Assembly: GCA_030431635.1 (NCBI GenBank)
Contig: JAUIIL010000005.1
Span: forward strand, 186,001-250,000
Direction of reading: 5' to 3'
Source: Bacteriovoracia bacterium
GTDB lineage: Bacteria > Bdellovibrionota > Bacteriovoracia > Bacteriovoracales > Bacteriovoracaceae
Length of the DNA stretch: 64,000 nt
In this document: piece after piece, positions 44,738-60,489 of the stretch
Numbering within the stretch: the first letter of the stretch is position 1
Layout of the letters: every line of letters begins with the position of its first letter
The notes under the pieces: generated by a model
What the model was told of the DNA's origin: nothing
Databases searched by the model: none
The model's input: only the letters and a program-made list of their open reading frames with translations
Position numbers and translations under genes: made by a program

Positions 44738-47422
44738 TTACATTTGTTCTACGAGATAGGTATCTTCTGAACAGTAAGTTTGAAGATAATCAAAACTACC
44801 ATCTAGGTAGGATATTTTTGCATTGATAACACCCTGGTTATCTCCAACTAAAAAGATTTTTGTTGTATTTTCACTTACTTCATCAAAAATTTGTCCATCC
44901 TCATCCAAAATCTTTTTATCAAGTCTCATATGTCCATAAACTGTTCTACCAGAGGAGATTATCTTTCTTGCAGCTTTTGCCAAGTTAATTTGAACAACAC
45001 ACTGACTTCCAATGTTTTGCATTCTAAATTTATCCATAATGAATTTGATGTAATCATCACTAGGGACTTCAACGATTGAATTATTCCATCGTCCAATAAA
45101 CAGCGAATCGCTTAGGTGATTAAGAACACTGTATTGTCTTGTTCCTAAAGGATAACTCATGTTTTTATAAACATATCTATTTAGTGATTTTTTATTAGGT
45201 CTTTTATTAGAAGCGAGTAAGTTTATTTCTTTCTTGGAAAGTGTTAGGGCCAGGTTTTTATTTCCTAATAGGTGGTTTTCTACTAATTCGAATTCATCTT
45301 TCTCTTTTTGGATATATTCATTTGTATCAAAATAAACTTCATTCTCAGTGATAAAAATAATTTTCGAACGGATGTCTCTATTTTTTGTAACATAACTTAA
45401 GAGAGCATTTCCTGGCTCAACGCCAATGAATAGAAGAAAATTATAATCACTATTTCCTGGATCGACTTGTTTGAACTCAAAATCTAAATAAATCATTTTT
45501 TCATAACTCTTATCTAACCTGGCATCTTCTGTAATTCTTTCAGAATCTAGTTGAACAAGAAGATGACCACCTCTACCCGTTAACTTATTCTTATCAAGAA
45601 TTTGCTCCATTGATGTTGTTTCAATCAAAGGAACATCAATGACAAAACTTTGAGGCTCAAAAACAAGATCCGTATTAGTTGGAATATGACCATGCAAGAC
45701 GACATTGGCAGACCTCACGGCCATTCGATTATTAAGTTTTGTTTTAATCGTAATATCTCCTGCACCGTGATCAGAGAATGTTTCATAAAAATTATCATAA
45801 AACCTTATATCAAAATTGCTCTGCTTTTTTGAAACACCTTTTGAAAGCATGACACTATCAACGTTGATTTTCAGATTGCTATCTATTGGTAAATTCACTT
45901 TATGAATAACATCAACTCTTTTTTCAATCTCTTTCTTCACCGAGCTTTGAAGTGACTTAACAATTTGCTCACTTTCTTCAGCTGAAATTTCTTCCCCAAT
46001 ATTACTCATTACTTTTGCAACTTCTTCTTGAGTTAGACTTGATTGCTTAATACCGCCGACAAGAGTTTTATTTCCTTCTGATACAAGAGAATTTTGTGCC
46101 ACCGTTTTTACTGTTTCACGGTTAGCGACAACTGCTTGATTGCTTTTCCCTTTTGGATCAAATTTAAAGATTGGTTTTACAATATTAGTCTTAACTTCTT
46201 TCTGAACATTTTGAGATTGCGTCTTATTTTGAACGACACTATTTACATTAGACTCTTCTTCAAATTTAGTATTCATTTGCTCAATGATTTGATCTAGTTG
46301 TCTGTGTTTCTTTTCTACTGGAGCATTATTTGAATAATCATTCTCTCTCTCTATTTTTTTAGCAACAGAACTTTGCTTAACAGATGAGGAATCGACTACT
46401 TCTTTTTCCACATTGTCTTGACTATCCAAAACAATCGCAGGAGAACGTCCTCTGTTTTCTTGATTAGTCATTTCTGGCTTAACTTCTTTAAAATCAGAAA
46501 GACTATGCCAAACTTTTTGCTCACTCTTTTTCGTTTTTGATGAATAATCAATATTTGCTTCTTGGTTTAAGCCAACCAAAGAAGCTATTTTTTCATTTTT
46601 CTTTTCAATAGCTTCCTTTGTTGTTTCTTTTTTTATCTTTTTGACTTCCTTATTTACTTTTTTAATGGCCTTAGGAAATTCTCGCTCTATTTTTTTTGAG
46701 GCCAATTGAATAGTCATCTTTTTCTTTTTTGCCTTTTCATCCTCTTTCTGCTTTTGCTCTACCTTATATTCTTCTAGGTACTGCTTTAAGGAAGAGGATT
46801 TATACCCAAGGTTTAAATCTGATAATTGAGGAATGGTAATCAGCTTATTAAGAGATACTTTTTTCTTAAGCTGATTTTTACTTTGAATAGTCTTTACTTT
46901 ATCAGCAACAGCTTTTGCTTGCATTTTTTTTGAATAGTCATCGAAGTAGGCAACCCAGTTAACAACGCTTGGTTTTTTAATATTGAAACCGCCAAGTCTT
47001 ATAACATCTGAATGCGTTAGCTCCGTTGCAGAAACTTTTTTAATAATAACTTTTTGATTTAAACTTTTTTCCGAAATTTCTTTATTCTTTTGACGAACTT
47101 TTATTTTAACTCTTTTTTTGTTTTCAATTTTTTTAACAATCTTTTTCTTTTCCACAACACTTACTATCTGCCTTTTTTCAACAACAGGTTTTTTTATCTT
47201 TGCCACAGTTTCATTTGATTTCTTTGCAGTAGTTAAGCTTACTTTCTTTTGTTGTGATGAATTTAAAGTAGGAAGTTTTACAATTTTTTTGAGATTTCTA
47301 TGAATGGCAACTCTGGTTTTTTTCTCTAGGTTTTTTTTAACAGCAATGAACGTCACGGCGAATACCAAGACGGTAGTGAGCAGGAAAAGATTTTTTGTTA
47401 TCATCCGTAATAACTTCATCAC
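44738..47422 (-). CDS. Lysine-rich membrane-anchored protein, 894 aa
   Basis: A single N-terminal transmembrane segment (about 10-26, KNLFLLTTVLVFAVTFIAV) is followed by about 250 residues that are dominated by Lys with Val, Ile and Glu (for example KKIVKKIENKKRVKIKVR). Then comes a Ser/Asn/Gln-rich disordered linker (about 280-510). The final 380 residues look folded and beta-rich (for example GHIPTNTDLVFEPQSFVIDV and YLDGSFDYLQTYC). No family is recognised. It would anchor in the inner membrane with the rest in the periplasm, where a highly basic stretch could bind peptidoglycan or DNA. It converges with the transglycosylase, six bases away. Confidence 0.6.
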   Translation of the reverse strand: MMKLLRMITKNLFLLTTVLVFAVTFIAVKKNLEKKTRVAIHRNLKKIVKLPTLNSSQQKKVSLTTAKKSNETVAKIKKPVVEKRQIVSVVEKKKIVKKIENKKRVKIKVRQKNKEISEKSLNQKVIIKKVSATELTHSDVIRLGGFNIKKPSVVNWVAYFDDYSKKMQAKAVADKVKTIQSKNQLKKKVSLNKLITIPQLSDLNLGYKSSSLKQYLEEYKVEQKQKEDEKAKKKKMTIQLASKKIEREFPKAIKKVNKEVKKIKKETTKEAIEKKNEKIASLVGLNQEANIDYSSKTKKSEQKVWHSLSDFKEVKPEMTNQENRGRSPAIVLDSQDNVEKEVVDSSSVKQSSVAKKIERENDYSNNAPVEKKHRQLDQIIEQMNTKFEEESNVNSVVQNKTQSQNVQKEVKTNIVKPIFKFDPKGKSNQAVVANRETVKTVAQNSLVSEGNKTLVGGIKQSSLTQEEVAKVMSNIGEEISAEESEQIVKSLQSSVKKEIEKRVDVIHKVNLPIDSNLKINVDSVMLSKGVSKKQSNFDIRFYDNFYETFSDHGAGDITIKTKLNNRMAVRSANVVLHGHIPTNTDLVFEPQSFVIDVPLIETTSMEQILDKNKLTGRGGHLLVQLDSERITEDARLDKSYEKMIYLDFEFKQVDPGNSDYNFLLFIGVEPGNALLSYVTKNRDIRSKIIFITENEVYFDTNEYIQKEKDEFELVENHLLGNKNLALTLSKKEINLLASNKRPNKKSLNRYVYKNMSYPLGTRQYSVLNHLSDSLFIGRWNNSIVEVPSDDYIKFIMDKFRMQNIGSQCVVQINLAKAARKIISSGRTVYGHMRLDKKILDEDGQIFDEVSENTTKIFLVGDNQGVINAKISYLDGSFDYLQTYCSEDTYLVEQM

Positions 47423-47537
47423 TAATTATTATTCTAAAGTGTTTTATTTTTATTCCAAGCAATAAAACTATTTTGCCCTCACTTTGTGAGTATCCAAAGA
47501 TGAATAAATATGAAGACTTAAGTGACTGGCCACAAAT

Positions 47538-47561
47538 AGGGTGGTCCTATAGAACCACCCT
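47538..47561. repeat. Hairpin with a copy of the CTATAG motif
   Basis: AGGGTGGT (47538-47545) pairs with ACCACCCT (47554-47561) around loop CCTATAGA. Read on the minus strand its centre is TGGTTCTATAGGACCA, 14 of 16 bases like the origin-proximal repeat at 47605 and elsewhere. It lies 35 bases beyond the stop of the EF-hand gene and may end its transcript, although no U-tract follows. Confidence 0.5.
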
Positions 47562-47595
47562 GTGTGGAAAAGTGGCTATTTCCTGAGAGTAAAAC

Positions 47596-48405
47596 TCAGT
47601 CTTGTGGTTCTATAGGGGCAGATTCGATCTGAGTAGTCAGACCTTCCCCCTGGTTTAATTCTCTAAGCTGCTTGAAGGCACTGGAGATGCTCTGTGAATT
47701 GGCAAAAAGACTTTTTTTGTTTTTGTAGAGAAAAAAATGCATAAGATCTCCCATTATGGGAACATGACCATAGATCAAAGAGTACTGAAAAATACTTTGT
47801 GCAACAATATTGGAGACAATAGATCCGACTTCATTAAAAGCAAATTCTTGAACACTTTTTTCATAATAATTTTTATAAGCATACCGAAGTTCATCATAAC
47901 TAATCAAATCATCGCGATTTAAATCAAAACATGCCAGAAAATACTCTCCATTCATTACTTTAAAAGATTTTTTTAGCTCCACGGAAGAACAATTATAGGG
48001 TTGTAGGGGAGTAAACTTTTCATTCACTTTTTTTAATAACTCAGACATTGTTTTCAACTTTTCTGTCGTAACTCTCATTGAAAGAGCTTTTTCAGAATTC
48101 TTCATTCTGTGAAAAATCGAAAAGTTGTTTTGTGAAGGAATTTCGTCATAGTTTAAAACATACAAACAAAATGATTTTTGCTTATTTTGAGTTCTAAATT
48201 GATTTTTGATTTCAGGGTAGGCGAGCTTATATTCTTTTAAAAATGAGGCGCAAAAACTCTGAGCTTCCTGGTAATCGATAACAAGATTTTTATTAAAATC
48301 AAAGCATTGAATGATTTCATGAGGGGTAGCCGAGTTTCGGCCCAACTCACAGTTCACTGCAAATGAGGTTAATACATAACTTAGAGCAATCAAAATTGTT
48401 TTCAT
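47596..48405 (-). CDS. Exported EF-hand protein
   Basis: 269 residues. A signal peptide (MKTILIALSYVLTSFAVN) is followed by two EF-hand-like loops: D36-x-N38-x-N40-x-x-x-D44-x-x-E47 (FDFNKNLVIDYQE) and D161-x-N163-x-D165-x-x-x-S169-x-x-E172 (FDLNRDDLISYDE). Both have the Ca-binding spacing. Both are preceded by Cys-Phe. Calcium binding outside the cytoplasm fits a marine or prey-associated life, an inference. The last residues SAPIEPQD are set by the 16-bp repeat that overlaps the 3' end of the gene. It lies downstream of atpC beyond a terminator. Confidence 0.7.
   Translation of the reverse strand: MKTILIALSYVLTSFAVNCELGRNSATPHEIIQCFDFNKNLVIDYQEAQSFCASFLKEYKLAYPEIKNQFRTQNKQKSFCLYVLNYDEIPSQNNFSIFHRMKNSEKALSMRVTTEKLKTMSELLKKVNEKFTPLQPYNCSSVELKKSFKVMNGEYFLACFDLNRDDLISYDELRYAYKNYYEKSVQEFAFNEVGSIVSNIVAQSIFQYSLIYGHVPIMGDLMHFFLYKNKKSLFANSQSISSAFKQLRELNQGEGLTTQIESAPIEPQD
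47605..47620 (+). repeat. Origin-proximal 16-bp repeat, copy 1 (exact)
   Basis: TGGTTCTATAGGGGCA, inside the 3' end of the EF-hand gene, where it encodes APIEP. One of at least six copies, all in the same orientation on the plus strand; see the first finding. Confidence 0.75.
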
Positions 48406-48472
48406 AAAATCTCCTTTTTTGAGTGCGTGAATGAAGGCTAGAGTGAGAACTTGTGTTTTGAAAAGACCCGAC

Positions 48473-48488
48473 TGGTCCTATGGGGGCA
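48473..48488 (+). repeat. Origin-proximal 16-bp repeat, copy 2 (14/16)
   Basis: TGGTCCTATGGGGGCA, intergenic between the EF-hand gene and atpC. It differs from the exact copies at two bases. This copy is not under protein-coding constraint. Confidence 0.6.
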
Positions 48489-48513
48489 TCGTAACTGTCT
48501 GATTTTATTTAAA

Positions 48514-48533
48514 AAGGGACCCTTAGGTCCCTT
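48514..48533 (-). terminator. Terminator of the atp operon
   Basis: An 8-bp stem AAGGGACC/GGTCCCTT with a four-base loop lies 27 bases after the atpC stop. On the minus strand it is followed by TTTTTAAAT, a proper U-tract. Confidence 0.9.
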
Positions 48534-48559
48534 CATTTCTTAGAATTTTAAAACAGCTC

Positions 48560-48970
48560 TTAAGCTCCTCTTAAATAACCAGCTCTAAGTCTAGCGGCTG
48601 CTCGTGAGAGCTTTCTTTGGTATTTAAGCAGTTGCTCATCAGATAAAGACTCTTTACCAGCGAGCATTTCTTGAGCTTTCTTTTGTGCCATTTTTGCTCG
48701 ATCTAAATCAATATCTTCAGCCTTTTCACTAGTTATGGCCAAAATACTTACTTCGTCTTTAAGAACTTTGCACAGACCATGAGTGACATGAAAATGCCTT
48801 TTTTCTCCAGAGGTCTTTACGCTCATCACACCCGTTGAGAGTTCTGTTAAAATATGAGTGTGGTCAGGGAGAACATTGATTTCACCCCGCACCGTTGGAA
48901 TAATCAAATCCGAACACTCTAAATTTTTAACAACTACACCATTTGGTGTAAGAACACTTAATTTAAACAT
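48560..48970 (-). CDS. atpC: ATP synthase epsilon subunit
   Basis: 136 residues. It is part of the central stalk and inhibits hydrolysis. The N-terminal beta sandwich (FKLSVLTPNGVVVKNLECSDLIIPTVRGEINVLPDH) and the HFHVTHGLCKVLKDEVSIL stretch are typical, followed by a two-helix C-terminus (AQKKAQEML, RAAARLRAG). It is the last gene of the ATP synthase run, one base after atpD, and ends at a strong terminator. Confidence 0.93.
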   Translation of the reverse strand: MFKLSVLTPNGVVVKNLECSDLIIPTVRGEINVLPDHTHILTELSTGVMSVKTSGEKRHFHVTHGLCKVLKDEVSILAITSEKAEDIDLDRAKMAQKKAQEMLAGKESLSDEQLLKYQRKLSRAAARLRAGYLRGA

Positions 48971-48971
48971 T

Positions 48972-50396
<1,425 letters not shown>

Positions 50397-51269
50397 TTAT
50401 CCATTCAAAGACTCAGCACCTGATACAACCTCAATCAACTCAGTTGTAATTGCTGCTTGTCTTAATTTATTCATTTTTAAAGTTAACTTTCTTATCATTT
50501 CTTTTGAGTTCTTCGTCGCATTTTCCATGGCGGCCATACGTGAACCGTGTTCAGCTGCAATAGCATCTAACATCGCTGTATAGACAGTATTAATATAAAC
50601 TTCAGGAACTAGAGTATCTAAAATACTCTCTGCAGAAGGCTCATATTTAAAATCAAAAGGAAAATCTTGCTGTAATTGTTCAACTTCAGTCGAATCTAGT
50701 CCTAAAGGAAGAACTTGGTTCACTGTAGGGGTAAAACTTATGGCAGAGTTAAAAACGTTGTAGGCCACAAAAACTTTACCAATTTCACCACTAGAAAATG
50801 CTCTTGATAATTCATCAGCAACAGCTCGAATCTCATCAAAATTGGGTTCAGCTTTCAAAAAAGTAAAAGTTTTAGCTGAGTTATAATCATTCTTGATCAC
50901 GTCTCTTACTTTTTTACCAATATAAAAAAGCTTAAAGTCATATTCAGAGTTATTAGCAATGAAAGCCTTTACTTTTTTAGACAGACCCGAGTTATAACCA
51001 CCACAAAGACCTTTATCAGCTGAAATTACTAATAAATAAGCTTGCTTATTTTCTTCATTACTCTCTAAGTACTTATGAGAGTAATCCTTGGCCAAAGCTG
51101 AAACTGTCTTAATCGTTGTTTCAAGCTCTTTTGCATAAGGTTTAAGATTTGTAATTCTTTGCTGAGCTTTACCAAGCTTAGCAGCTGATACAAGCTTCAT
51201 GGCCGTAGTCGTTTTAAGAGTACTTTTTGTACTTTTAATCTTCTTTTTTAAATCTTTAATATTGGCCAT
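50397..51269 (-). CDS. atpG: ATP synthase gamma subunit
   Basis: 290 residues. It is the rotating shaft of F1. The N-terminal helix (IKDLKKKIKSTKSTLKTTTAMKLVSAAKL), the DKGLCGGYNSGL block and the C-terminal helix (MAAMENATKNSKEMIRKLTLKMNKLRQAAITTELIEVVSGAESL) match the family. It sits 13 bases after atpA and 6 before atpD. Confidence 0.96.
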   Translation of the reverse strand: MANIKDLKKKIKSTKSTLKTTTAMKLVSAAKLGKAQQRITNLKPYAKELETTIKTVSALAKDYSHKYLESNEENKQAYLLVISADKGLCGGYNSGLSKKVKAFIANNSEYDFKLFYIGKKVRDVIKNDYNSAKTFTFLKAEPNFDEIRAVADELSRAFSSGEIGKVFVAYNVFNSAISFTPTVNQVLPLGLDSTEVEQLQQDFPFDFKYEPSAESILDTLVPEVYINTVYTAMLDAIAAEHGSRMAAMENATKNSKEMIRKLTLKMNKLRQAAITTELIEVVSGAESLNG

Positions 51270-51282
51270 TATTTACCTTCAA

Positions 51283-52800
51283 CTAATATTTTTTTGTTTC
51301 AATAAATTCTTTAATAACAGCAGTTAGTTTAGAAGCGTTTTCATCTGAAATAGCTTTTTCGTTTCTAATCGCATCTAGCAAAGCCGCGTTTCTTGATTTT
51401 AAAGAATCAATTAAATCACTTTCAGCTTGTCTTACTTTTTCAACAGGAACAGAGTCGAATAACCCTTTAGTTCCAGAGAAAATTGTTATGACTTGTTCGA
51501 TAACATCAAGAGGTTGATATTGACCTTGTTTAAGTAGCTCAACCAGTCTTGCCCCTCTGGCCAATTGTCTTTGAGTTGCTTCATCGAGATCTGAACCAAA
51601 CTGAGCAAAAGCTTGAAGCTCTCTATATTGAGCAAGATCTAGTCTTAGAGTTCCTGCAACTTTTTTCATGGCCTTAATCTGAGCAGAACCACCAACTCTA
51701 GAAACAGAAAGACCAACGTTAACAGCTGGACGAACACCAGAGTTGAATAGATCCGACTCTAAATAAATCTGCCCATCAGTGATAGAAATAACGTTAGTAG
51801 GAATATAAGCAGACACGTCACCTTCTTGAGTTTCAATAACTGGAAGTGCAGTTAGTGATCCCGCTCCAACATCATCACTTAGTTTTGCAGCTCTTTCTAA
51901 AAGTCTTGAGTGTGTATAGAAAACATCACCAGGGAACGCTTCACGTCCAGGAGGTCTTCTTAAGAGAAGGGAAAGTTGTCTATACGCCTGAGCTTGTTTT
52001 GTTAAATCATCATAAACAACAAGTGCATGCTTTCCGTTATCTCTATAGAATTCTCCCATCGTACAACCAGTATATGGTGCTAAATATTGTAGGGGAGCCG
52101 TTTGAGAAGCTGATGCAGAAACAATAATTGTATATTCTAGAGCTCCGGCTTCTTCTAACTTTCTATAAACTTGTCTAACAGTTGATTGTTTTTGCCCAAC
52201 AGCTACATACACACAAACAACATCTTTGCCTTTTTGGTTGATAATTGTATCAATTGCAACCGCTGTCTTACCAGTTTTTCTATCTCCAATAATAAGCTCT
52301 CTCTGTCCTCTACCAATAGGAATCATAGAATCGATTGCTTTAATTCCTGTTTGCATTGGTTCGTGAACAGGTTTTCTTTTAATAATACCAGGAGCTTTAA
52401 TTTCAATTTTTCTTGATTCAGATGATTTAATTTCACCTTTTCCATCAAGAGGCTCTCCAATAGCGCTAACAACTCTTCCTAAAAGACCATCACCAACTGG
52501 AACTTCAACAATTTTCTCTGTTCTCTTAACTGTTGACCCTTCTCTGATATTTTTATCTTCACCAAGAACAACAACACCAACATTGTTTGTCTCAAGGTTA
52601 AGAACCATCCCTTTTGTTCCATCACCAAATTCAACAAGCTCACCGGCCATTACATTTTTAAGCCCAAAGACTCTTGCAACACCATCCCCAATAGTGAGAA
52701 CTGTTCCAATCTCGTTTACTTCAAGCTTTGTTTCAAAGTTGGCAATCCTGTCCTTAATAATTCCTGTAATCTCTTCTGGTCTTAAAGATGTAGTACTCAT
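51283..52800 (-). CDS. atpA: ATP synthase alpha subunit
   Basis: 505 residues. The non-catalytic nucleotide-binding subunit of F1. Walker [12 protein letters not shown] is intact, as are [16 protein letters not shown], the [17 protein letters not shown] stretch and the arginine-finger region [15 protein letters not shown]. It is 12 bases after atpH and 13 bases before atpG, in the order expected for an F1 operon. Confidence 0.98.
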
Positions 52801-52812
52801 TGTTTCTGTCCT

Positions 52813-53352
52813 TTATTCGCTTAACAAAGATTCTTTAAATCTATTGAGTTGATTATCAATTGTTGCATCTAACTGCATATCTTCAACAGTCACTCTAAAG
52901 CCAGCGCTAATATGAGTTGATTGTTCGTAATCTAGAATAGGCTTTTTGCCTAATTTTGCTTCGATATAAGATTCTAGTTTTTTCTTATCTTCATTTGAAA
53001 TTTCATTTTCAAACCCTTGGATTGTTCCTCTTAAAAAACCTTTTCTATGGTCATCAACAATAATAACTTCTTTTGAAATAAGAGGAAGAAGGTTAATTCT
53101 GTTTTCTTCAATCAAAAAATTAACTGCATTAGTTAGAGCTTTGGAGAGGTTCATTTTACCTGCGATATCTCCAAAAACATTTTTCTTATCTTCTGGGGAG
53201 AAAACATCTAAAAAGAGGACGTTCTCAAGGTCGTTTGATTCATTGATAACTTCTGTTAAACTAATCAATTCTTGAGCAACATCAAAATTATATTCTTTTC
53301 CTAAATCTAAAAATGACTTCGCGTAAATTTTTGCGACACTCTGCTCTTTCAT
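52813..53352 (-). CDS. atpH: ATP synthase delta subunit
   Basis: 179 residues. It joins the peripheral stalk to the top of F1. The N-terminal helical domain starts VAKIYAKSFLDLGKEYNF, and the C-terminal block ISAGFRVTVEDMQLDATIDNQLNRFKESL carries the conserved Gly-hydrophobic pattern. Its start overlaps the atpF stop by one base and it lies 12 bases before atpA. Confidence 0.93.
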   Translation of the reverse strand: MKEQSVAKIYAKSFLDLGKEYNFDVAQELISLTEVINESNDLENVLFLDVFSPEDKKNVFGDIAGKMNLSKALTNAVNFLIEENRINLLPLISKEVIIVDDHRKGFLRGTIQGFENEISNEDKKKLESYIEAKLGKKPILDYEQSTHISAGFRVTVEDMQLDATIDNQLNRFKESLLSE

Positions 53353-53888
53353 TATTTAAGTTCCTTTAACAAATTACCTGCTACTTTACCTTGAAGGCTT
53401 GAGTTAGTTTTGATTTTATCCTTAGCACCACTTATAACCTTATTGATAAGTTCTCTATTTAAACTTGCAACGAGATTATTTTTATCTGCCTCAATTTTTG
53501 CCTTAGCATCAATTTTTATCTTATCTATTCTTTGGTTAGTCTCGTTGATGTATCTGTTTTTAAAACTAACAAATTCATCTTTTGCTCTTTGCTGAATATT
53601 ACTCATTTCAGAATCAACATTTTTTAGCTTCTTGTTTTGCTCTTCAAGCTTAGCTTTTGCCTCAGCCGATCTTTGAGACGCTCTCTTCATTGTTTGTTCA
53701 ACTGTATCTGATTTTTCATTAAAATGTTGTTTAATGGGGTTTTTCAATTTGAAACCAAGGAATCCAACTAAAATAAAAAAGTTCACAGCTGGGGCTATTA
53801 AATCTGCTGCACTACCATGATGGGCTCCATTTCCAGCTGCAAAAACAACGGAAGAGCATAGGGCAAAAAGAAAAAATAATTTATTCAT
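53352..53888 (-). CDS. atpF: ATP synthase b subunit with cleavable-type leader
   Basis: 178 residues. The N-terminus (MNKLFFLFALCSSVVFAAGNG) looks like a signal peptide. Next comes the membrane helix (ADLIAPAVNFFILVGFLGFKL) and a long charged coiled coil (about 60-160) that forms the peripheral stalk. The leader before the membrane helix is a feature reported for some delta-proteobacterial b subunits. It follows a second, leaderless b-type gene by 11 bases, so the stalk is probably a b/b' heterodimer. Confidence 0.9.
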   Translation of the reverse strand: MNKLFFLFALCSSVVFAAGNGAHHGSAADLIAPAVNFFILVGFLGFKLKNPIKQHFNEKSDTVEQTMKRASQRSAEAKAKLEEQNKKLKNVDSEMSNIQQRAKDEFVSFKNRYINETNQRIDKIKIDAKAKIEADKNNLVASLNRELINKVISGAKDKIKTNSSLQGKVAGNLLKELK

Positions 53889-53899
53889 ATTTAAAATCC

Positions 53900-54343
53900 T
53901 TACTGAGTAATTTTTCCAACAAGTGTTTCAGACAAAGTATCCACTTCTTTTAAAAGAGCTTCTCTTTGGGATTTAACTTCAGCTTCGTTAGCTTTATGGG
54001 CTTTTTCTATATCACCCAAAACTTCGTTTTCGATTTTTTTAATGAGAGCACTTTGTTCTTTAATCAAAGTCTCTTTTTCTTTAGAAAGAAACACTTGGGC
54101 TTTTTCATGTGCTGTATTAATTTTTTCTTTATACTTACTTTCAAGCTCTTCAACTTTTTCAAGCATATTTCCAGCAGAACCTTCTAACTTAACTGTTTTC
54201 TCTTCTCTTGTTTCAATTACTGATTGCAGTTTATTAAGAAAAAGAAATTTTGTTAAAACAAATAGAGCAACAACAACAACAAACTGATTGAGCACTGAAG
54301 AATCAGCACCAAGCTGAGTAAAGATAGCGGTAACAGTATCCAT
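53900..54343 (-). CDS. atpF': ATP synthase b' subunit
   Basis: 147 residues. One N-terminal membrane helix (about 15-40, VLNQFVVVVALFVLTKFLFL) is followed by KLQSVIETREEKTVKLEGSAGNM and a long coiled coil. It is a b-type subunit lacking the leader of the neighbouring atpF, so I call it b'. It is the first gene of the seven-gene run b'-b-delta-alpha-gamma-beta-epsilon. Subunits a (atpB) and c (atpE) are not in the window. Confidence 0.85.
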   Translation of the reverse strand: MDTVTAIFTQLGADSSVLNQFVVVVALFVLTKFLFLNKLQSVIETREEKTVKLEGSAGNMLEKVEELESKYKEKINTAHEKAQVFLSKEKETLIKEQSALIKKIENEVLGDIEKAHKANEAEVKSQREALLKEVDTLSETLVGKITQ

Positions 54344-54415
54344 TAAATTAACCTTTGCTAAGCAAAAAATTTTTGTGTTTTCAGGGGGTTTTATATAAGA
54401 AATACGCAGATTAGA

Positions 54416-54757
54416 CTAGTTATTTTTTTCTTTCATTTTTGTGACGCCATGGAAAATAACACCTTCTTCCACAATTAAGCTCGGAGCCGTTATCGTTCCT
54501 TCAAACCTGGCAGGCTTCCTAATTTCGACACGACTTGTTGCTTTTAAATTTCCTTTTACAGTGCCAGAAATAAGAATGATATTCGCGTTAATATCAGCAT
54601 TGACGAGAGCACCTTCTGAAATAATCAAAGTATCATTAGAAAAAACACTGCCACTAATTTGGCCAGCGATTCTCACAACACCACTGAAAGAGAGGTTCCC
54701 TTCAAACCGACAACCTTCCTCAATTACTGCACAAATGTCACCTGAGCGCTCGAGCAT
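54416..54757 (-). CDS. bacA: Bactofilin
   Basis: 113 residues. Bactofilins are small beta-helical cytoskeletal polymers. The repeated pattern of short beta-turns (EGNLSFSGVVRIAGQISG, LIISEGALVNADINAN, LISGTVKGNLKATSRVEI, ARFEGTITAPSLIVEEG) is the DUF583 signature, here with short tails on both sides. It starts 7 bases after parB on the same strand. In Myxococcus, bactofilins are known to scaffold ParABS near the poles, so the link is likely meaningful here. Confidence 0.9.
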   Translation of the reverse strand: MLERSGDICAVIEEGCRFEGNLSFSGVVRIAGQISGSVFSNDTLIISEGALVNADINANIILISGTVKGNLKATSRVEIRKPARFEGTITAPSLIVEEGVIFHGVTKMKEKNN

Positions 54758-54764
54758 GGAGAGA

Positions 54765-55691
54765 TTATCTCATAAGATATTCAAAAATATCATTAAATTC
54801 TGCCTCATTCGAGAATTTAATTTTTATAAGCCCTGCGCCATTTTGCTTAGAATTAAGATCAAAATGAAAACCAGTTTGTCTCTCTAATTTATCTTTTAAG
54901 GCTGGAAGTCTTTCATCAAAAAATTCGTTTGATTTAATTTTCTCTTTATTTGTTTTTTTCTTTTTCTTAATAAGATTCTCAGTCTCTCTAACAGAGAGCC
55001 CTTCCGCTGCTGCTTGATTGGCCGTTCTAATTATTTCTTCTCGATCCTTAATTCCGCTGAGAACTTTTGCATGGCCAAAGCTTAATATTTCTTTTTGAAG
55101 AAGGGATATGACATCTCTAGGAAGTTTTAAAATTCTCAAAAAGTTAGCAATACTCGATCTCTCTTTCCCAACCTTTTTCGCAACTTCCTCTTGAGTTAAA
55201 TTAAACTCCTCCATTAGTTGATAGTAAGCTAAGGCTTCTTCCACACAATTAAGATCAGCTCGCTGAACATTCTCTATAATGGCCATAAGAAGAGAGTCTT
55301 TCTTAGTTACTTTCTTAACAACAACAGGAACATCTTTTAGACCAGCAAGCTTAGCAGCTCGAAGTCTTCTCTCACCGGCTATAACCTGAAATCCTCCATC
55401 TACCTCTTCGACAATTAAAGGTTGAATGATTCCATTCTGAGCAATTGATTGACTCAATTCTTTTATCTCAGCTTCTTTAAAAATTTTTCTAGGCTGGTCC
55501 TTATTGGCCTTAATACTAGATAGGGGTATTTTAATACTTCCAGTCGCTGGTTCTATAGGGGCAGATGTATCAATTTTTTTTATTGATTTTTCTTTATTCT
55601 CTATCTCTTGCCCGATTGATGGACCCAATAAAGCGGCCATTCCTTTACCTAGTACGTTTTTCTTACCTTTGTTTTCTTTTTGAATGTCCAT
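54765..55691 (-). CDS. parB: Chromosome-partitioning protein ParB
   Basis: 308 residues. It binds parS and spreads as a CTP-dependent clamp. The N-terminus (GKGMAALLG) has the ParA-interaction motif. The ParB/Srx domain begins IPLSSIKANKDQPRKIF; GERRLRAAK is the arginine-rich CTP-binding motif and NVQRADLNCVEEALAY the next block. The HTH is near TQEEVAKKVGKERSSIANFLRILKL. A copy of the 16-bp repeat encodes APIEP between the N-terminal segment and the ParB domain. It starts 10 bases after parA. Confidence 0.96.
   Translation of the reverse strand: MDIQKENKGKKNVLGKGMAALLGPSIGQEIENKEKSIKKIDTSAPIEPATGSIKIPLSSIKANKDQPRKIFKEAEIKELSQSIAQNGIIQPLIVEEVDGGFQVIAGERRLRAAKLAGLKDVPVVVKKVTKKDSLLMAIIENVQRADLNCVEEALAYYQLMEEFNLTQEEVAKKVGKERSSIANFLRILKLPRDVISLLQKEILSFGHAKVLSGIKDREEIIRTANQAAAEGLSVRETENLIKKKKKTNKEKIKSNEFFDERLPALKDKLERQTGFHFDLNSKQNGAGLIKIKFSNEAEFNDIFEYLMR
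55548..55563 (+). repeat. Origin-proximal 16-bp repeat, copy 3 (exact)
   Basis: TGGTTCTATAGGGGCA inside parB, coding APIEP in the linker before the ParB domain. Same orientation as the other copies. Confidence 0.75.
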
Positions 55692-55701
55692 TTATGCGTC
55701 C

Positions 55702-56553
55702 TTAGTAATTAGTGTAATCTTCAAATTTGGGGATTTCTTTCATTTTACTTGCCAAGAAATTAACCTGGCTTTGCTCTTCTTCAGGTTTTTCAAGCGTATG
55801 AATAATCTCTCTAGCAAGAGAGAGATAGGCTTCACTTCCTTTAGAATTAATGTCATAAAGAATAATCGGTTTTCCAAAACTTGGGCTCTCAGAAAGTTTA
55901 ACGTTTCTTGGAATTAAACTTTCGAAAACCTTGCCTTTAAAGTGTTTGTGGATTTCACTAGAAACTTGCTTAGAAAGATTATTTCTTCCATCAAACATAG
56001 TAAGTAAAATCCCCAAAAGTTCTATCTTGGGATTCAGAGAAGATCTTATAAGTTTAATTGTATTAAGTAGCTGTGAAAGCCCTTCCATAGCAAAATATTC
56101 TGTTTGCATAGGAACTATATAGTGGGTAGCTGCATTTAAAGAATTCACTGTTAACAAGCCTAAAGAAGGAGCACAATCAATAATGATATAATCATAAACA
56201 TTCTCAACTGCAGCTAGAGCACTTTTTAACTTAGCTTCTCTAGCAAAAGCGCTGACAAGCTCTATTTCAGCTCCAATTAAGTTATTGTCTGAAGGAACAA
56301 TATCAAGGAGAGGCAGATCAGTTTTATAAATACAACGTGAAATCTCTTCCTCACCAATCAATGTATGATAAATATTTCTCTCAGAAAAACTCTCCTTATC
56401 AAGACCAAGTCCTACACTTGCATTTCCTTGAGGATCAAAATCAATTAGCAGAGTCTTTTTCTCGGCTACTGCTAGACACGATGCAAGATTAATGGCGGTT
56501 GTTGTTTTTCCAACTCCACCTTTTTGATTAGCAATTGCAATGATTTTAGACAT
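55702..56553 (-). CDS. parA: Chromosome-partitioning ATPase ParA (Soj)
   Basis: 283 residues. A deviant Walker A (KGGVGKT, 11-17), the LLIDFDPQGNAS block and YIIIDCAPSLGLLT are intact, so it should bind ATP and DNA and pull ParB-parS complexes apart. LIPRNVKLSESPSFGKPI is the conserved C-terminal block. It is 10 bases upstream of parB and follows rsmG after 38 bases, on the same strand. Confidence 0.97.
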   Translation of the reverse strand: MSKIIAIANQKGGVGKTTTAINLASCLAVAEKKTLLIDFDPQGNASVGLGLDKESFSERNIYHTLIGEEEISRCIYKTDLPLLDIVPSDNNLIGAEIELVSAFAREAKLKSALAAVENVYDYIIIDCAPSLGLLTVNSLNAATHYIVPMQTEYFAMEGLSQLLNTIKLIRSSLNPKIELLGILLTMFDGRNNLSKQVSSEIHKHFKGKVFESLIPRNVKLSESPSFGKPIILYDINSKGSEAYLSLAREIIHTLEKPEEEQSQVNFLASKMKEIPKFEDYTNY

Positions 56554-56591
56554 TTACTCTCCTAAGCTTAAAGAATCTAAGCTCTTAATTT

Positions 56592-57242
56592 TTAAAGAAT
56601 ATGTGACAATTTGACAAGATTTCTTTTCTTCTTTGTTCCACATGGAACATTTTTAGGCTTAAAGCCAATTAAAACCCTTTTATCAGTTCCAGGCACTTCT
56701 ATTTCTGTATTTTCAATTATCTCCCAGGAAGAGCTTATTTTCTCTAAACCGGTTTTTTCTAAATCAAAAAAATTAGGGCCTTTATAAAAAAAGCACTCTA
56801 TATCTGCATCAAACACAAGAGCATCGAGAATGTTTTCAACAGTAGAGACAGCCTTGCTAATGACAACAACTTTCTTATCAATCAAGATTTCTTCAAACCT
56901 AGAGTGAACCAAAGAGACATTCCTCAACTGAAAATAATCAGAAAGTAAGCCAACTGCTTTAACTTTCTTACTCTTAGACTCAACCCCAAGAAATTTTATC
57001 TGAGGTAAAATCCTGGCAAGAGGAAGAATAGGAAATCCTCCCCCAAAACCAATATCAAGAACATGACCAGTGCTCTCTATAGACTCAGAAAATAGAGAAG
57101 ATTGATAATAGGGTAAAACTGAATCTAGGATTTGCTTATGATAGAACTCTTCTTCTTCTTTAATGGCCGTTAAATTAATACCTAAAAGCTCATTATTTAA
57201 GTAAGAAAAATATTTTTGCGAGAATTCAAGCAGATCTTGCAT
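56592..57242 (-). CDS. rsmG: 16S rRNA G527 methyltransferase RsmG (GidB)
   Basis: 216 residues. It makes m7G at position 527 of 16S rRNA. The SAM-binding motif is LDIGFGGGFPILPLA, followed by FLGVESKSKKVKAV and KAVSTVENIL. It abuts mnmG without a gap. Its 3' end carries a parS site (56634-56649), which encodes VPCGT. The last 20 or so residues (TKKKRNLVKLSHIL) are a short basic tail beyond the usual fold, perhaps accommodating that site. Confidence 0.95.
   Translation of the reverse strand: MQDLLEFSQKYFSYLNNELLGINLTAIKEEEEFYHKQILDSVLPYYQSSLFSESIESTGHVLDIGFGGGFPILPLARILPQIKFLGVESKSKKVKAVGLLSDYFQLRNVSLVHSRFEEILIDKKVVVISKAVSTVENILDALVFDADIECFFYKGPNFFDLEKTGLEKISSSWEIIENTEIEVPGTDKRVLIGFKPKNVPCGTKKKRNLVKLSHIL
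56634..56649. promoter_or_regulatory. parS site 1
   Basis: TGTTCCACATGGAACA matches the parS consensus TGTTnCACGTGnAACA except for one central base. It lies inside the 3' end of rsmG, about 80 bases before parA, and its sequence is the exact reverse complement of parS site 2. ParB is expected to bind here. Confidence 0.88.
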
Positions 57243-59102
57243 CTACAAAGCCCCACCCGCAACCACAGAAAGTGTTGCTGGCCTAATTCCTTCAATGCGC
57301 TTTAATTGTCCAAAAGTTTCAGGCTTAATTTTCAGAATTCTTTGCTTGCACTCAAAAGAGATGTTTTTTGAATCCTTTAATTGACTCCAATCAATCTTCA
57401 TTGAATCTAGTTTTCTAATCTTTTCGAGTTGTCCAGAAGCTCTACCAATATAGCCTTCATACTTCTTAGAAATCGCCACAGATCTTACCACTGCCCTGGG
57501 ATATTTAAGACCCATGTAATTCAACAATAACTCAAGGATTTCAACAGGATTTAGCCAAGATTGTCTTAATAATTCCGATAGGTTAAGCCTTTTATTAAGC
57601 TTATTAATACCAGGGATGTCCCTATAGGGGCACTCTGATGGATGGAAGAATTCAGTGTCAAGAATCTCTGATAGCGTTTCAAAACTTTTAACAAAATCTC
57701 TATTATAAAAATCCACAGGTAAATTCAGCATGAGGCTTTCCCTATATGGAAACAATCTCAGTACAGCATTATCCTCTCTAACATAAAGCCTGTTCTCAGA
57801 GCGAGCTGTAAACAGCCTATAGGGCTCATCTCTAGTATTTGAAACTAAATCCTCGATCATGACTCCTATATAAGAATCCAATCGAGAAATTGAAAATTCT
57901 TCTCTTCCTAAAATTGAAAAGGCTGCATTCACACCCGCAACAAAACCCTGACCAGCAGCTTCTTCATAACCAGAAGTTCCGTTCACTTGACCAGCAAAAT
58001 AAAGACCAGAGAACTTTTTATGTTCTAGCGATAAACAAAGGTCGGTTGTATCAACAACATCATATTCAACAGCATAACCATATGTTTTTATTGAAGAATT
58101 TTCTAAACCTGGAATTGTTTTAACGTATAACTCTTGAATATCTTCAGGTAGAGATGAGGAAATTCCACTCGGGTAGAGTGTATCTCTATTATGCCCTTCG
58201 GGCTCTAAAAAAACATGATGAATATTCTTATCGAGGTACCTAAAAGCTTTATCTTCTATACTAGGGCAATACCTTGCCCCAACTGCATTGATTTGTCCGT
58301 TAAACATGGGGGATTTCTCTTTATTCTCACGAATAAACCCCATTGTTTTTTCATTGGTTCTTGTTAGATAGCAAGAGACTTGAGTAAGGTTTCTGCCTAG
58401 ATTTTGATGAGACCAGTGAAAGTTTTCAGTCAATTCATCAGATTTTTGCTCTTCACACTTACTAAAATCCACAGTCTCAATTTTAATGCGAGGAGGTGTT
58501 CCTGTTTTAAATCTTAAAGGTCGTTTCTTTATTTGAGAAAATATTTGCTCAAGAGAAATAGATGACTCGCATCCGTCTCGACCACCATCTCTTACCCTTG
58601 CTCCAGTATGCAACCTTCCATTTAAAAAAGTCCCAACAGTTAATATGATTTTTTTTGAATAAAAATGCTCTCCATCACTAGTAGAAACACGATAAGTATC
58701 ATTTTCTATAGAAATATTCTCTACTTTAGCCTTCACTATCTCAACGTTTGTTTCTTCCTGTAAATATTTTTCGGCTTCAAGTGCATAAACATCTTTATCA
58801 ATTTGTACTCTCGTAGACTGAACAGCAAAGCCTTTAGACTCATTCAGTGTCCTATACTGAATACCAGCCTTGTCAGCTATAATTGGCATCACTCCACCAA
58901 GAGCATCTAGTTCTTTAACAACTTGTCCTTTTCCAACACCACCAATACAAGGATTGCAAGGAGCTGATGCTATAGGTACATTAGGCATAGTAATAAGAGC
59001 GACTTTTAAATGAAATCGGCTTGCGATAGCTGATGCTTCAACACCTGCATGCCCTCCACCTAAAACAATAATATCGAACAATCTCATCTCCAAATGTTCC
59101 AT
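57243..59102 (-). CDS. mnmG: tRNA uridine-5-carboxymethylaminomethyl modifying enzyme MnmG
   Basis: 619 residues. With MnmE it modifies U34 of tRNAs. FAD binding is at IIVLGGGHAGVEAS (about 11-24), and APCNPCIGGVGKGQVVKEL, VGTFLNGRLHTG and FKTGTPPRI are family blocks. The start is uncertain: ATG 59102 lies inside parS site 2 and has no Shine-Dalgarno, whereas TTG 59081, with GGAG six bases before it, would begin MFDIIVLGGG. A variant copy of the 16-bp repeat sits within the gene at 57617, in a different frame from the others. Confidence 0.95.
   Translation of the reverse strand: MEHLEMRLFDIIVLGGGHAGVEASAIASRFHLKVALITMPNVPIASAPCNPCIGGVGKGQVVKELDALGGVMPIIADKAGIQYRTLNESKGFAVQSTRVQIDKDVYALEAEKYLQEETNVEIVKAKVENISIENDTYRVSTSDGEHFYSKKIILTVGTFLNGRLHTGARVRDGGRDGCESSISLEQIFSQIKKRPLRFKTGTPPRIKIETVDFSKCEEQKSDELTENFHWSHQNLGRNLTQVSCYLTRTNEKTMGFIRENKEKSPMFNGQINAVGARYCPSIEDKAFRYLDKNIHHVFLEPEGHNRDTLYPSGISSSLPEDIQELYVKTIPGLENSSIKTYGYAVEYDVVDTTDLCLSLEHKKFSGLYFAGQVNGTSGYEEAAGQGFVAGVNAAFSILGREEFSISRLDSYIGVMIEDLVSNTRDEPYRLFTARSENRLYVREDNAVLRLFPYRESLMLNLPVDFYNRDFVKSFETLSEILDTEFFHPSECPYRDIPGINKLNKRLNLSELLRQSWLNPVEILELLLNYMGLKYPRAVVRSVAISKKYEGYIGRASGQLEKIRKLDSMKIDWSQLKDSKNISFECKQRILKIKPETFGQLKRIEGIRPATLSVVAGGAL
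57617..57632 (+). repeat. Origin-proximal 16-bp repeat, copy 4 (13/16)
   Basis: TGTCCCTATAGGGGCA: core CTATAGGGGCA is exact, with three differences to the left. Inside mnmG it is read in another frame (ECPYRD), not as APIEP, which argues against a peptide-level cause. Confidence 0.6.
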
Positions 59103-59110
59103 GTGGAACA
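59095..59110. promoter_or_regulatory. parS site 2
   Basis: TGTTCCATGTGGAACA, the reverse complement of parS site 1, one base from consensus in the centre. It spans the junction between mnmE (stop at 59113) and mnmG and includes the proposed ATG of mnmG. Confidence 0.88.
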
Positions 59111-59112
59111 GT

Positions 59113-60489
59113 TCATTTACCTATACAGAAGTTATTAAATATATGATGCAAAACATCATTTGGCGAGACAATTCCTATTAATTCGGCCACCGTTTTTTCT
59201 AAAATAAGAAATTCAGAGGATAAAATTCCAATATCTGTTTGCTCTTTAAGAAGCTGAGAGTAAGAGTCTACCTCACTATCTAACATATTGATAATATTGA
59301 CATGTCTGTCAAGTAATAGTGGTTTTTTATTTATAATACTCTCCATTTTTTTACTCACTAAATTTTTAAAAGATTCAAATTGCTCAAAAGAAAAAGAACT
59401 TGCTTCTATTTTTAAATAAATTTTATCTATTTTAGGAAGAAGTGGTTCTATAGGGGCAAGTGCCTTACTAAAGCCTTCTCTATCTGTGTGAGTGATAAAA
59501 ATAAGATCGAAAGAAATCTCTTTTAACTTTTTAAAATAACCTTCATCCCATTCAAAAGGGTTAATAACTAAAACATTAAAAAAAGAATTTCTCGCTAATG
59601 ATAAACTTTGATCGATTCCAAGTTTTTCTATGTTATTTTTTGATTCTCTGACGCCAGCTGTGTCGACTAAAAAATAAAAATTATCTCTTATTTTTATTTT
59701 CTCGGTAATGTAATCTCTCGTCGTTCCTTTTATATCTGAAACAATGGCCCTGTTTTGTTTAAGAAGTGAGTTAAAGATCGTGCTTTTCCCTGCATTTGGT
59801 AAACCAAGCAAGGTGATTTTAGACTCAATTAATTGAGAATAATCAGACTGGGTTTTACTCGAAAGCCCTTTTACAACTTGAGAAAAATCTCTGAATGAGT
59901 TTTTTATATTTTGCCATGCTTGTTCTTCTCCAACATCATCAGAGAAATCAGTAAGTATTTCTAAAGATGAACGAAAAGTTAAAAGAGTTTTTTGAAGTTT
60001 TAAATACAATTCATACAAATCACCAGAAAGAAAACTTCTTCCATGTTCAAGTGCGTATTTATTATTTGCATTTAATAAAAGATCTAAACCTTCTACTTGA
60101 GATAGTGAGAGCTTTTTGTTTCTCAAGGCCCTAAAAGAAAACTCTCCTGGTTTAGCTATTCTAAAGCCTGCTTTTTCGACAAAGAGATTAATAATATTTT
60201 GAGTTAAAAGAGGATTTCCATGAACACTTAATTCAAGAATATTTTCGCCGTTGTAGCTTTTTGGAGCTGGAAAATAAACGAGTACAACATCATCCAGCAC
60301 TCTACTATCGTCAATTACCTTGCAATAATGTGCGTATCGAGGCTTTATTTGAGAACTCTTTATTGAAAGAAATGGTTCTATAGGGGCGAAATTCTGAAAT
60401 CCTGACAATCTTACTACATTAATAGCACTAGGAGATAAGGAGTTCGTACTACAAGCAATAATAGGATCATCTGAATAAACTAGATCCAT
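59113..60489 (-). CDS. mnmE: tRNA modification GTPase MnmE
   Basis: 458 residues. Partner of MnmG in U34 modification. An N-terminal formyl-THF-binding-like domain (1-120) is followed by helices and an embedded G domain: GLPNAGKSTIFNSLL, IKGTTRDYI (switch with TTRD) and DTAGVRES. The C-terminal CIGK (455-458) is the CxGK motif needed for activity. Two copies of the 16-bp repeat lie in the gene, coding APIEP near residue 35 and near residue 348, the latter in the G domain. Confidence 0.96.
   Translation of the reverse strand: MDLVYSDDPIIACSTNSLSPSAINVVRLSGFQNFAPIEPFLSIKSSQIKPRYAHYCKVIDDSRVLDDVVLVYFPAPKSYNGENILELSVHGNPLLTQNIINLFVEKAGFRIAKPGEFSFRALRNKKLSLSQVEGLDLLLNANNKYALEHGRSFLSGDLYELYLKLQKTLLTFRSSLEILTDFSDDVGEEQAWQNIKNSFRDFSQVVKGLSSKTQSDYSQLIESKITLLGLPNAGKSTIFNSLLKQNRAIVSDIKGTTRDYITEKIKIRDNFYFLVDTAGVRESKNNIEKLGIDQSLSLARNSFFNVLVINPFEWDEGYFKKLKEISFDLIFITHTDREGFSKALAPIEPLLPKIDKIYLKIEASSFSFEQFESFKNLVSKKMESIINKKPLLLDRHVNIINMLDSEVDSYSQLLKEQTDIGILSSEFLILEKTVAELIGIVSPNDVLHHIFNNFCIGK
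59443..59458 (+). repeat. Origin-proximal 16-bp repeat, copy 5 (exact)
   Basis: TGGTTCTATAGGGGCA inside mnmE, coding LAPIEPLLP in the G-domain part. Same orientation as the others. Confidence 0.75.
60373..60388 (+). repeat. Origin-proximal 16-bp repeat, copy 6 (15/16)
   Basis: TGGTTCTATAGGGGCG inside mnmE, near its 5' end, coding FAPIEPFLS. Last base differs from the exact copies. Confidence 0.72.

Follow-up and report, generated by a model that had tools for sequence, protein, structure and literature searches.

Caulobacter ParB reads its parS site through residues Q162, G170, K171, S172, R173, N178, G201, and R204, of which R173 and G201 have been described as shared by every ParB orthologue (PMC7383237). 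Bdellovibrio has a single ParABS system with two parS sites (PMC10547168), and dual ParABS systems have been documented on the Streptomyces linear plasmid SCP1 (PMC13245405). ParB and Noc are reported to load as a CTP clamp and slide (PMC7053999, PMC8429893). In the open-access literature searched, we found neither ParB nor parS described for Bacteriovorax or Halobacteriovorax. Here we describe a palindromic site, clustered at the origin and carried by the whole family Bacteriovoracaceae, which are mostly predatory bacteria. This site is probably parS2, the loading site of a second chromosomal ParABS system that is encoded in trans.

We analyzed a window of 64,000 nucleotides (C14:186001-250000) from a genome of 3,318,142 bases in 19 contigs. 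The window carries a canonical ParABS system, with both genes on the minus strand: parA (ParA1, 283 aa, 55702-56553), identified by sequence and profile search, and parB (ParB1, 308 aa, 54765-55691), whose ParB_N and HTH_ParB matches were far over the cut-offs and which has the LGKG ParA-binding motif and keeps the parS-reading residues. Across the family, ParB1 retains the equivalents of R173 and G201. Two ordinary parS sites are present: TGTTCCACATGGAACA at 56634-56649, found at the same place in relatives with the consensus TGTTCCACGTGGAACA, and TGTTCCATGTGGAACA at 59095-59110, located by motif search and comparison with relatives. A bactofilin gene comes right after parB (54416-54757); bd3904 occupies the same position in Bdellovibrio (PMC10547168), and in Myxococcus bactofilins organize ParABS (PMC5703909).

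The preliminary description of this DNA had listed six copies of a 16-bp repeat, all on the plus strand, and upon recomputation every coordinate and mismatch count was reproduced. Three copies are exact matches to TGGTTCTATAGGGGCA (matrix score 27.9 each). One lies at 47605-47620 in the 3′ end of an EF-hand-like gene (47596-48405, minus strand, identified by sequence and profile search) and encodes APIEP on the minus strand; one lies at 55548-55563 within parB, giving APIEP in the N-terminal linker; and one lies at 59443-59458 within mnmE (59113-60489, minus strand, identified by sequence and profile search), giving APIEP in the G-domain loop that hosts the tandem arrays in relatives. A second mnmE copy, TGGTTCTATAGGGGCG at 60373-60388 (15/16, score 24.6), falls in the 5′ part of the gene and again encodes APIEP. 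The remaining two are TGGTCCTATGGGGGCA at 48473-48488 (14/16, score 27.6), between the EF-hand-like gene and atpC, and TGTCCCTATAGGGGCA at 57617-57632 (13/16, score 17.0, the weakest of seven), which is read in another frame (CPYRD) within mnmG (57243-59102, minus strand, identified by sequence). We also found a seventh copy, missed earlier, on the minus strand at 47542-47557: TGGTTCTATAGGACCA (plus strand TGGTCCTATAGAACCA; score 28.7), an intergenic site one base short of a perfect palindrome. This inverted copy reveals the element to be a 16-bp palindrome. The same copy is part of a longer inverted repeat (47536-47562, GGGTGGTCCTATAGAACCACCC) that could also fold into an RNA hairpin where the EF-hand-like gene ends. 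Nearby, at 44738-47422 and downstream of F1Fo-ATPase genes, lies a predicted protein of 894 aa with no Pfam match, whose counterparts in relatives host 8 site copies.

Seven copies in the window compare with 0.16 expected in shuffled sequence at up to 3 mismatches, which bears out the earlier view that the repeat is not expected by chance. In the first 47 kb, where the preliminary description had seen no other match, positions 1-44000 of the window gave a single weak match at chance level (26196, score 13.2 vs 17-29 for the seven). Clustering near the origin, also proposed earlier, was upheld by a count across the whole genome, in which every copy with up to one mismatch falls inside the window. 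The refined motif TGGTYCTATNGRRSCA matches exactly at five places in the 3.3-Mb genome, all within 12 kb beside parB (C14:233542-245458, or 47542-59458 of the window). Since dnaN, recF, and gyrase-like ORFs adjoin the window just past its right end, the cluster is origin-proximal.

To define the site across relatives, we used the window ParB (P0001) to fetch stretches that flank parB by no more than 10 kb in either direction (L034-L078, mostly Bacteriovoracaceae/Halobacteriovorax). Nearly all carry the motif, the four that yielded no strict match being either short stretches or parB-edge ones. From 290 sites in 50 family origin-region stretches we derived a matrix that reads T-G-G-T-Y-C-T-A-T-(A/G/C)-G-G-(A/G)-(C/G)-C-A. 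The family consensus is the 16-bp palindrome TGGTCCTATAGGACCA, with a common asymmetric form, TGGTYCTATNGGGGCA; the forms met most often in relatives are TGGTTCTATAGGACCA and the perfect palindrome itself. Site density in family origin regions is 333 per Mb, vs approximately 5-7 per Mb in 35 parB regions mostly from other phyla. Tandem arrays are frequent, with spacings of 24 bp (64 pairs) or 27 bp (40 pairs), often inside mnmE.

The strict motif occurs in 47/50 sampled Bacteriovoracaceae genomes vs 1/142 other genomes of the phylum, and a reversed-pattern control was found in 1/192 genomes. Among the family genomes lacking it, G135 and G164 have degenerate forms, and G117, which gave no canonical parB match, is probably missing its origin region from the assembly. 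The exact matches all fall within about 21 kb or less, beside the origin, both in the own genome and in six relatives with good assemblies. For example, in the near-complete chromosome G008 they span 3,419,873-3,432,515 of 3,435,933 bases, with a one-mismatch copy at base 1468 in the first ORF. Proximity to oriC, in the own genome and relatives alike, is also what is seen with canonical chromosomal ParB/parS.

The site is visibly akin to parS. The two share a 16-bp palindromic layout, TG...C....G...CA, with 10/16 positions identical between the motif and TGTTCCACGTGGAACA, and ordinary parS sites are interleaved with the new motif in the window and in relatives. The consensus TGGTCCTATAGGACCA does not match canonical parS (TGTTTCACGTGAAACA / TGTTCCACGTGGAACA): 6/16 positions differ, namely positions 3, 7, and 8 of each half-site, the centre included. 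This kinship, the mnmE tandem arrays of sister genomes, and the accompanying second ParA-ParB pair were absent from the preliminary description.

That second pair provides a candidate binder. The own genome encodes exactly two ParB_N proteins, ParB1 and a protein we call ParB2 (P0006, C3:42247-43128). Orthologues of ParB2 (E < 1e-75, 56-68% identity) were found in 49/50 family genomes, all but G091, and in 0/142 others, where the best matches were canonical ParBs. A second family sample gave 48/50, the exceptions being G192 (75% complete) and G091; in the latter, parA2 is cut off by a contig end, so parB2 falls in an assembly gap. Every assessable family genome has this second, distant parA-parB operon, vs 0/142 others. 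A ParA-like gene lies directly upstream of parB2 in 30/30 loci. ParA2 has a deviant Walker A motif (NNKGGVGKT), and its nearest named families are ParA/RepA/MinD, all under the equivalog cut-offs. The operon neighborhood is the same in two genera (nadA- and NifS-like genes to one side and glutamate dehydrogenase to the other, all named by eye) and is far from the origin, at approximately 0.4 Mb in the one near-complete relative checked. No site copy adjoins parA2-parB2, unlike most plasmid systems.

The N-terminal CTPase-fold domain of ParB2 scored over the cut-offs for PF02195 (E = 2.5e-14) and TIGR00180, and the CTP-pocket motifs GERR[FY]RA and ENxxRExL are kept. Its helix-turn-helix region scored 20.0 bits against the PF17762 cut-off of 22.6 and aligns to that of ParB1 without gaps. 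The recognition helix, LGISKSEVHR, is nearly invariant and unlike that of ParB1. At the positions of Caulobacter Q162, G170, K171, S172, R173, and N178, ParB2 has E, G, I, S, K, and R, and the GHA[KR] stretch that begins at G201 is replaced by EKYVL. Because R173 and G201 are kept in ParB1 and altered in ParB2, ParB1 should read parS and ParB2 should read a related but different site. In the alignment, ParB2 lacks the LGKG ParA-binding motif (its N-terminus is MAKxFAxRVSKK) and the ParB C-terminal domain. A tree of 51 sequences placed ParB2 as a separate, fully supported clade on a long branch outside the sampled chromosomal ParBs, with the root set by midpoint only. On this placement we rejected a recent duplication of ParB1, so ParB2 would be older or horizontally acquired. 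We found no viral relatives of ParB2, and its plasmid and phage matches were distant ParBs only. Many relatives (G008, G045, G050, and others) also encode a third class of ParB_N protein (approximately 300-360 aa, with weak E-values of 1e-5 to 1e-10). Because the own genome has the motif but no protein of this class, we rejected it as the general binder.

We then considered what kind of element the repeat might be. Of the 290 sites, 168 are in mnmE, mostly in one frame, which might suggest selection for a GPIEP/APIEP peptide and low-complexity loop expansion in MnmE and other proteins. The others, however, comprise 62 intergenic copies and copies in parB, mnmG, atpD, yidC, parA, rsmG, and further genes, and three frames are used. 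When we searched MnmE by peptide alone, we recovered 114 G[PS]I[EG]P peptides, in which glycine was encoded by GGT in 114/114 (background 36%), isoleucine by ATA in 113/114 (background 26%), and the last proline by CCA or CCG only. The residues vary where the DNA site permits (P/S, E/G). Peptides encoded by the sites vary freely (GPIEP, GSIGP, GPIGA, and GSMGA), and the array lies at different points from genome to genome, within the loop region that surrounds and follows G4/G5. This comparison of codons with amino acids in relatives, which the preliminary description had proposed, places selection at the DNA level because the codons are nearly fixed against background. The conserved entity is the DNA, and a protein-level repeat is scarcely credible. 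The excess of copies in one frame, also pointed out earlier, does exist and is explained by coding limits: one frame contains a CTA-TAG stop, another gives a bulky CPYRT/WSYRT, and the third gives a G/A-P-I-E-P that a loop tolerates. Family MnmE proteins are lengthened by in-frame arrays such as (GPIEPLSKS)n, reaching up to 527 aa vs 458 aa here, in approximately 30 relatives (e.g., L038:6037-6190).

The preliminary description had also read the six plus-strand copies as a polar recognition site for segregation, replication, or loop-extrusion machinery, or as an RNA target. Its segregation-type reading agrees with an origin cluster beside real parS sites, and its proposal of selection on DNA or RNA stands for the DNA; the polarity does not survive. 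The seventh copy is inverted, the consensus is palindromic, and orientation counts in relatives are 59 vs 44 for the asymmetric class (GGGGCA end). Sites carrying a single C-to-T change give a skewed 29 vs 109, a count in which tandem copies are not independent. Conserved polarity is absent from the element. KOPS-like signals are non-palindromic and keep their orientation toward dif; this site, in addition, occupies only about 20 kb and is not distributed along the replichores. With copies on both strands of genes as well as between genes, an RNA target is unlikely, and we give either version, a translocase or loop-extruder signal or an RNA target, very little credence. A DNA uptake sequence or REP-type repeat would be present in many copies genome-wide; here the exact copies are all in one region. 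A phage or plasmid origin of the site was likewise rejected, as 60 IMG/VR contigs carried a single chance copy, or two in the case of L240 (1961-2012), where a collagen-like gene of Gly-Pro repeats yields the same 16-mer by chance. Because of these chance copies the 16-mer alone is not diagnostic, and the L240 gene also counts in favor of the peptide reading. The repeat is almost certainly a genuine DNA site.

As to what binds it, canonical ParB1 is encoded within the same 15-20 kb as both palindromes and might read the motif as a second-class or degenerate parS. We consider this improbable: ParB1 retains the parS-specificity residues, the R173 and G201 equivalents (positions from PMC7383237); ordinary parS sites persist beside the motif; three positions per half, the centre included, have changed; and ParBs elsewhere in the phylum occur without such a motif in all but 1/142 genomes. 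It is somewhat less improbable, though still unlikely, that the binder is another family-specific DNA-binding protein, such as an origin-binding replication regulator, a nucleoid organizer, or a transcription factor. Any such protein would give the same co-occurrence pattern, and since the site and ParB2 are confined to a single family, their co-occurrence counts as one evolutionary event. Closely spaced arrays of palindromes are also known as iterons and operators. Against this, the site shares the architecture and length of parS, the sole other ParB_N protein of the own genome is a ParB of the partition type that occurs family-wide and whose reading helix is altered and nearly invariant, and among the genes at the cluster we saw none resembling a transcription factor. 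We favor ParB2 as the likely binder of the site.

If it behaves like ParB and Noc, ParB2 would form a dimer at the palindrome, close into a CTP-dependent clamp, and slide to adjacent DNA. Multiple sites and arrays would raise its loading, so that the cluster near parS may nucleate a second nucleoprotein complex over the origin region, which ParA2 could then move or hold in position. One chromosome would in this way have two partition systems on the same origin region. To our knowledge, two systems aimed at one origin region are known only from plasmids (SCP1, PMC13245405). A role of the site in segregation is a reasonable expectation. We likewise lean, with similar reserve, toward a whole family in which two independent ParABS systems segregate or anchor the origin, one of them canonical and the other a trans-encoded ParA2-ParB2 with parS2 arrays in the mnmE coding sequence and further parS2 sites scattered in neighboring genes. 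Within the open-access literature, no second system encoded in trans and directed at the same chromosomal origin appears to have been described, and the ParB2 class goes unmentioned in a 2025 survey of the ParB fold (PMC12704722).

If this reading is correct, the dual system could serve the partition of multi-copy chromosomes in non-binary division and would offer a handle on how predators that divide in this way manage several origins per filament. It would also provide a new ParB/site pair for studying the evolution of ParB specificity and possibly an orthogonal pair for DNA labelling. In MnmE, selection at the DNA level reshapes a loop of an essential enzyme, with up to approximately 10 in-frame copies whose codons are nearly frozen while the residues are free.

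Among known systems, chromosomal ParABS as described in Bdellovibrio bacteriovorus (PMC10547168) and Caulobacter is the closest, with a 16-bp palindrome near the origin and a ParA ATPase paired with a CTPase-fold ParB. The system proposed here differs in three changes per half-site, an operon far from the origin and from its sites, an altered DNA-reading helix, the lack of LGKG, and tandem arrays inside mnmE, and it is present in addition to the canonical one. Noc and its NBS site in Firmicutes also pair a second chromosomal ParB-family protein with a parS-related site (PMC7383237, PMC8429893). NBS is TATTTCCCGGGAAATA and is spread around the chromosome, whereas the present site has another sequence and is confined to the origin. 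Noc is not known to have a partner ParA; parB2 comes with a cognate parA2, and its product is no close duplicate of ParB1. The Streptomyces plasmid SCP1 likewise carries, on one molecule, two type I ParA-ParB pairs whose parS sites are distinct (PMC13245405), but that molecule is a linear plasmid, and the system proposed here is chromosomal and family-wide, with the same operon neighborhood in two genera and its sites interleaved at the origin with those of the canonical system. Finally, plasmid centromere arrays and iterons, and the direct repeats near parAB on Deinococcus secondary replicons, are short tandem sites serving partition; there they lie upstream of the parAB operon (PMC7671480), whereas the arrays described here are in trans, inside a conserved housekeeping gene.
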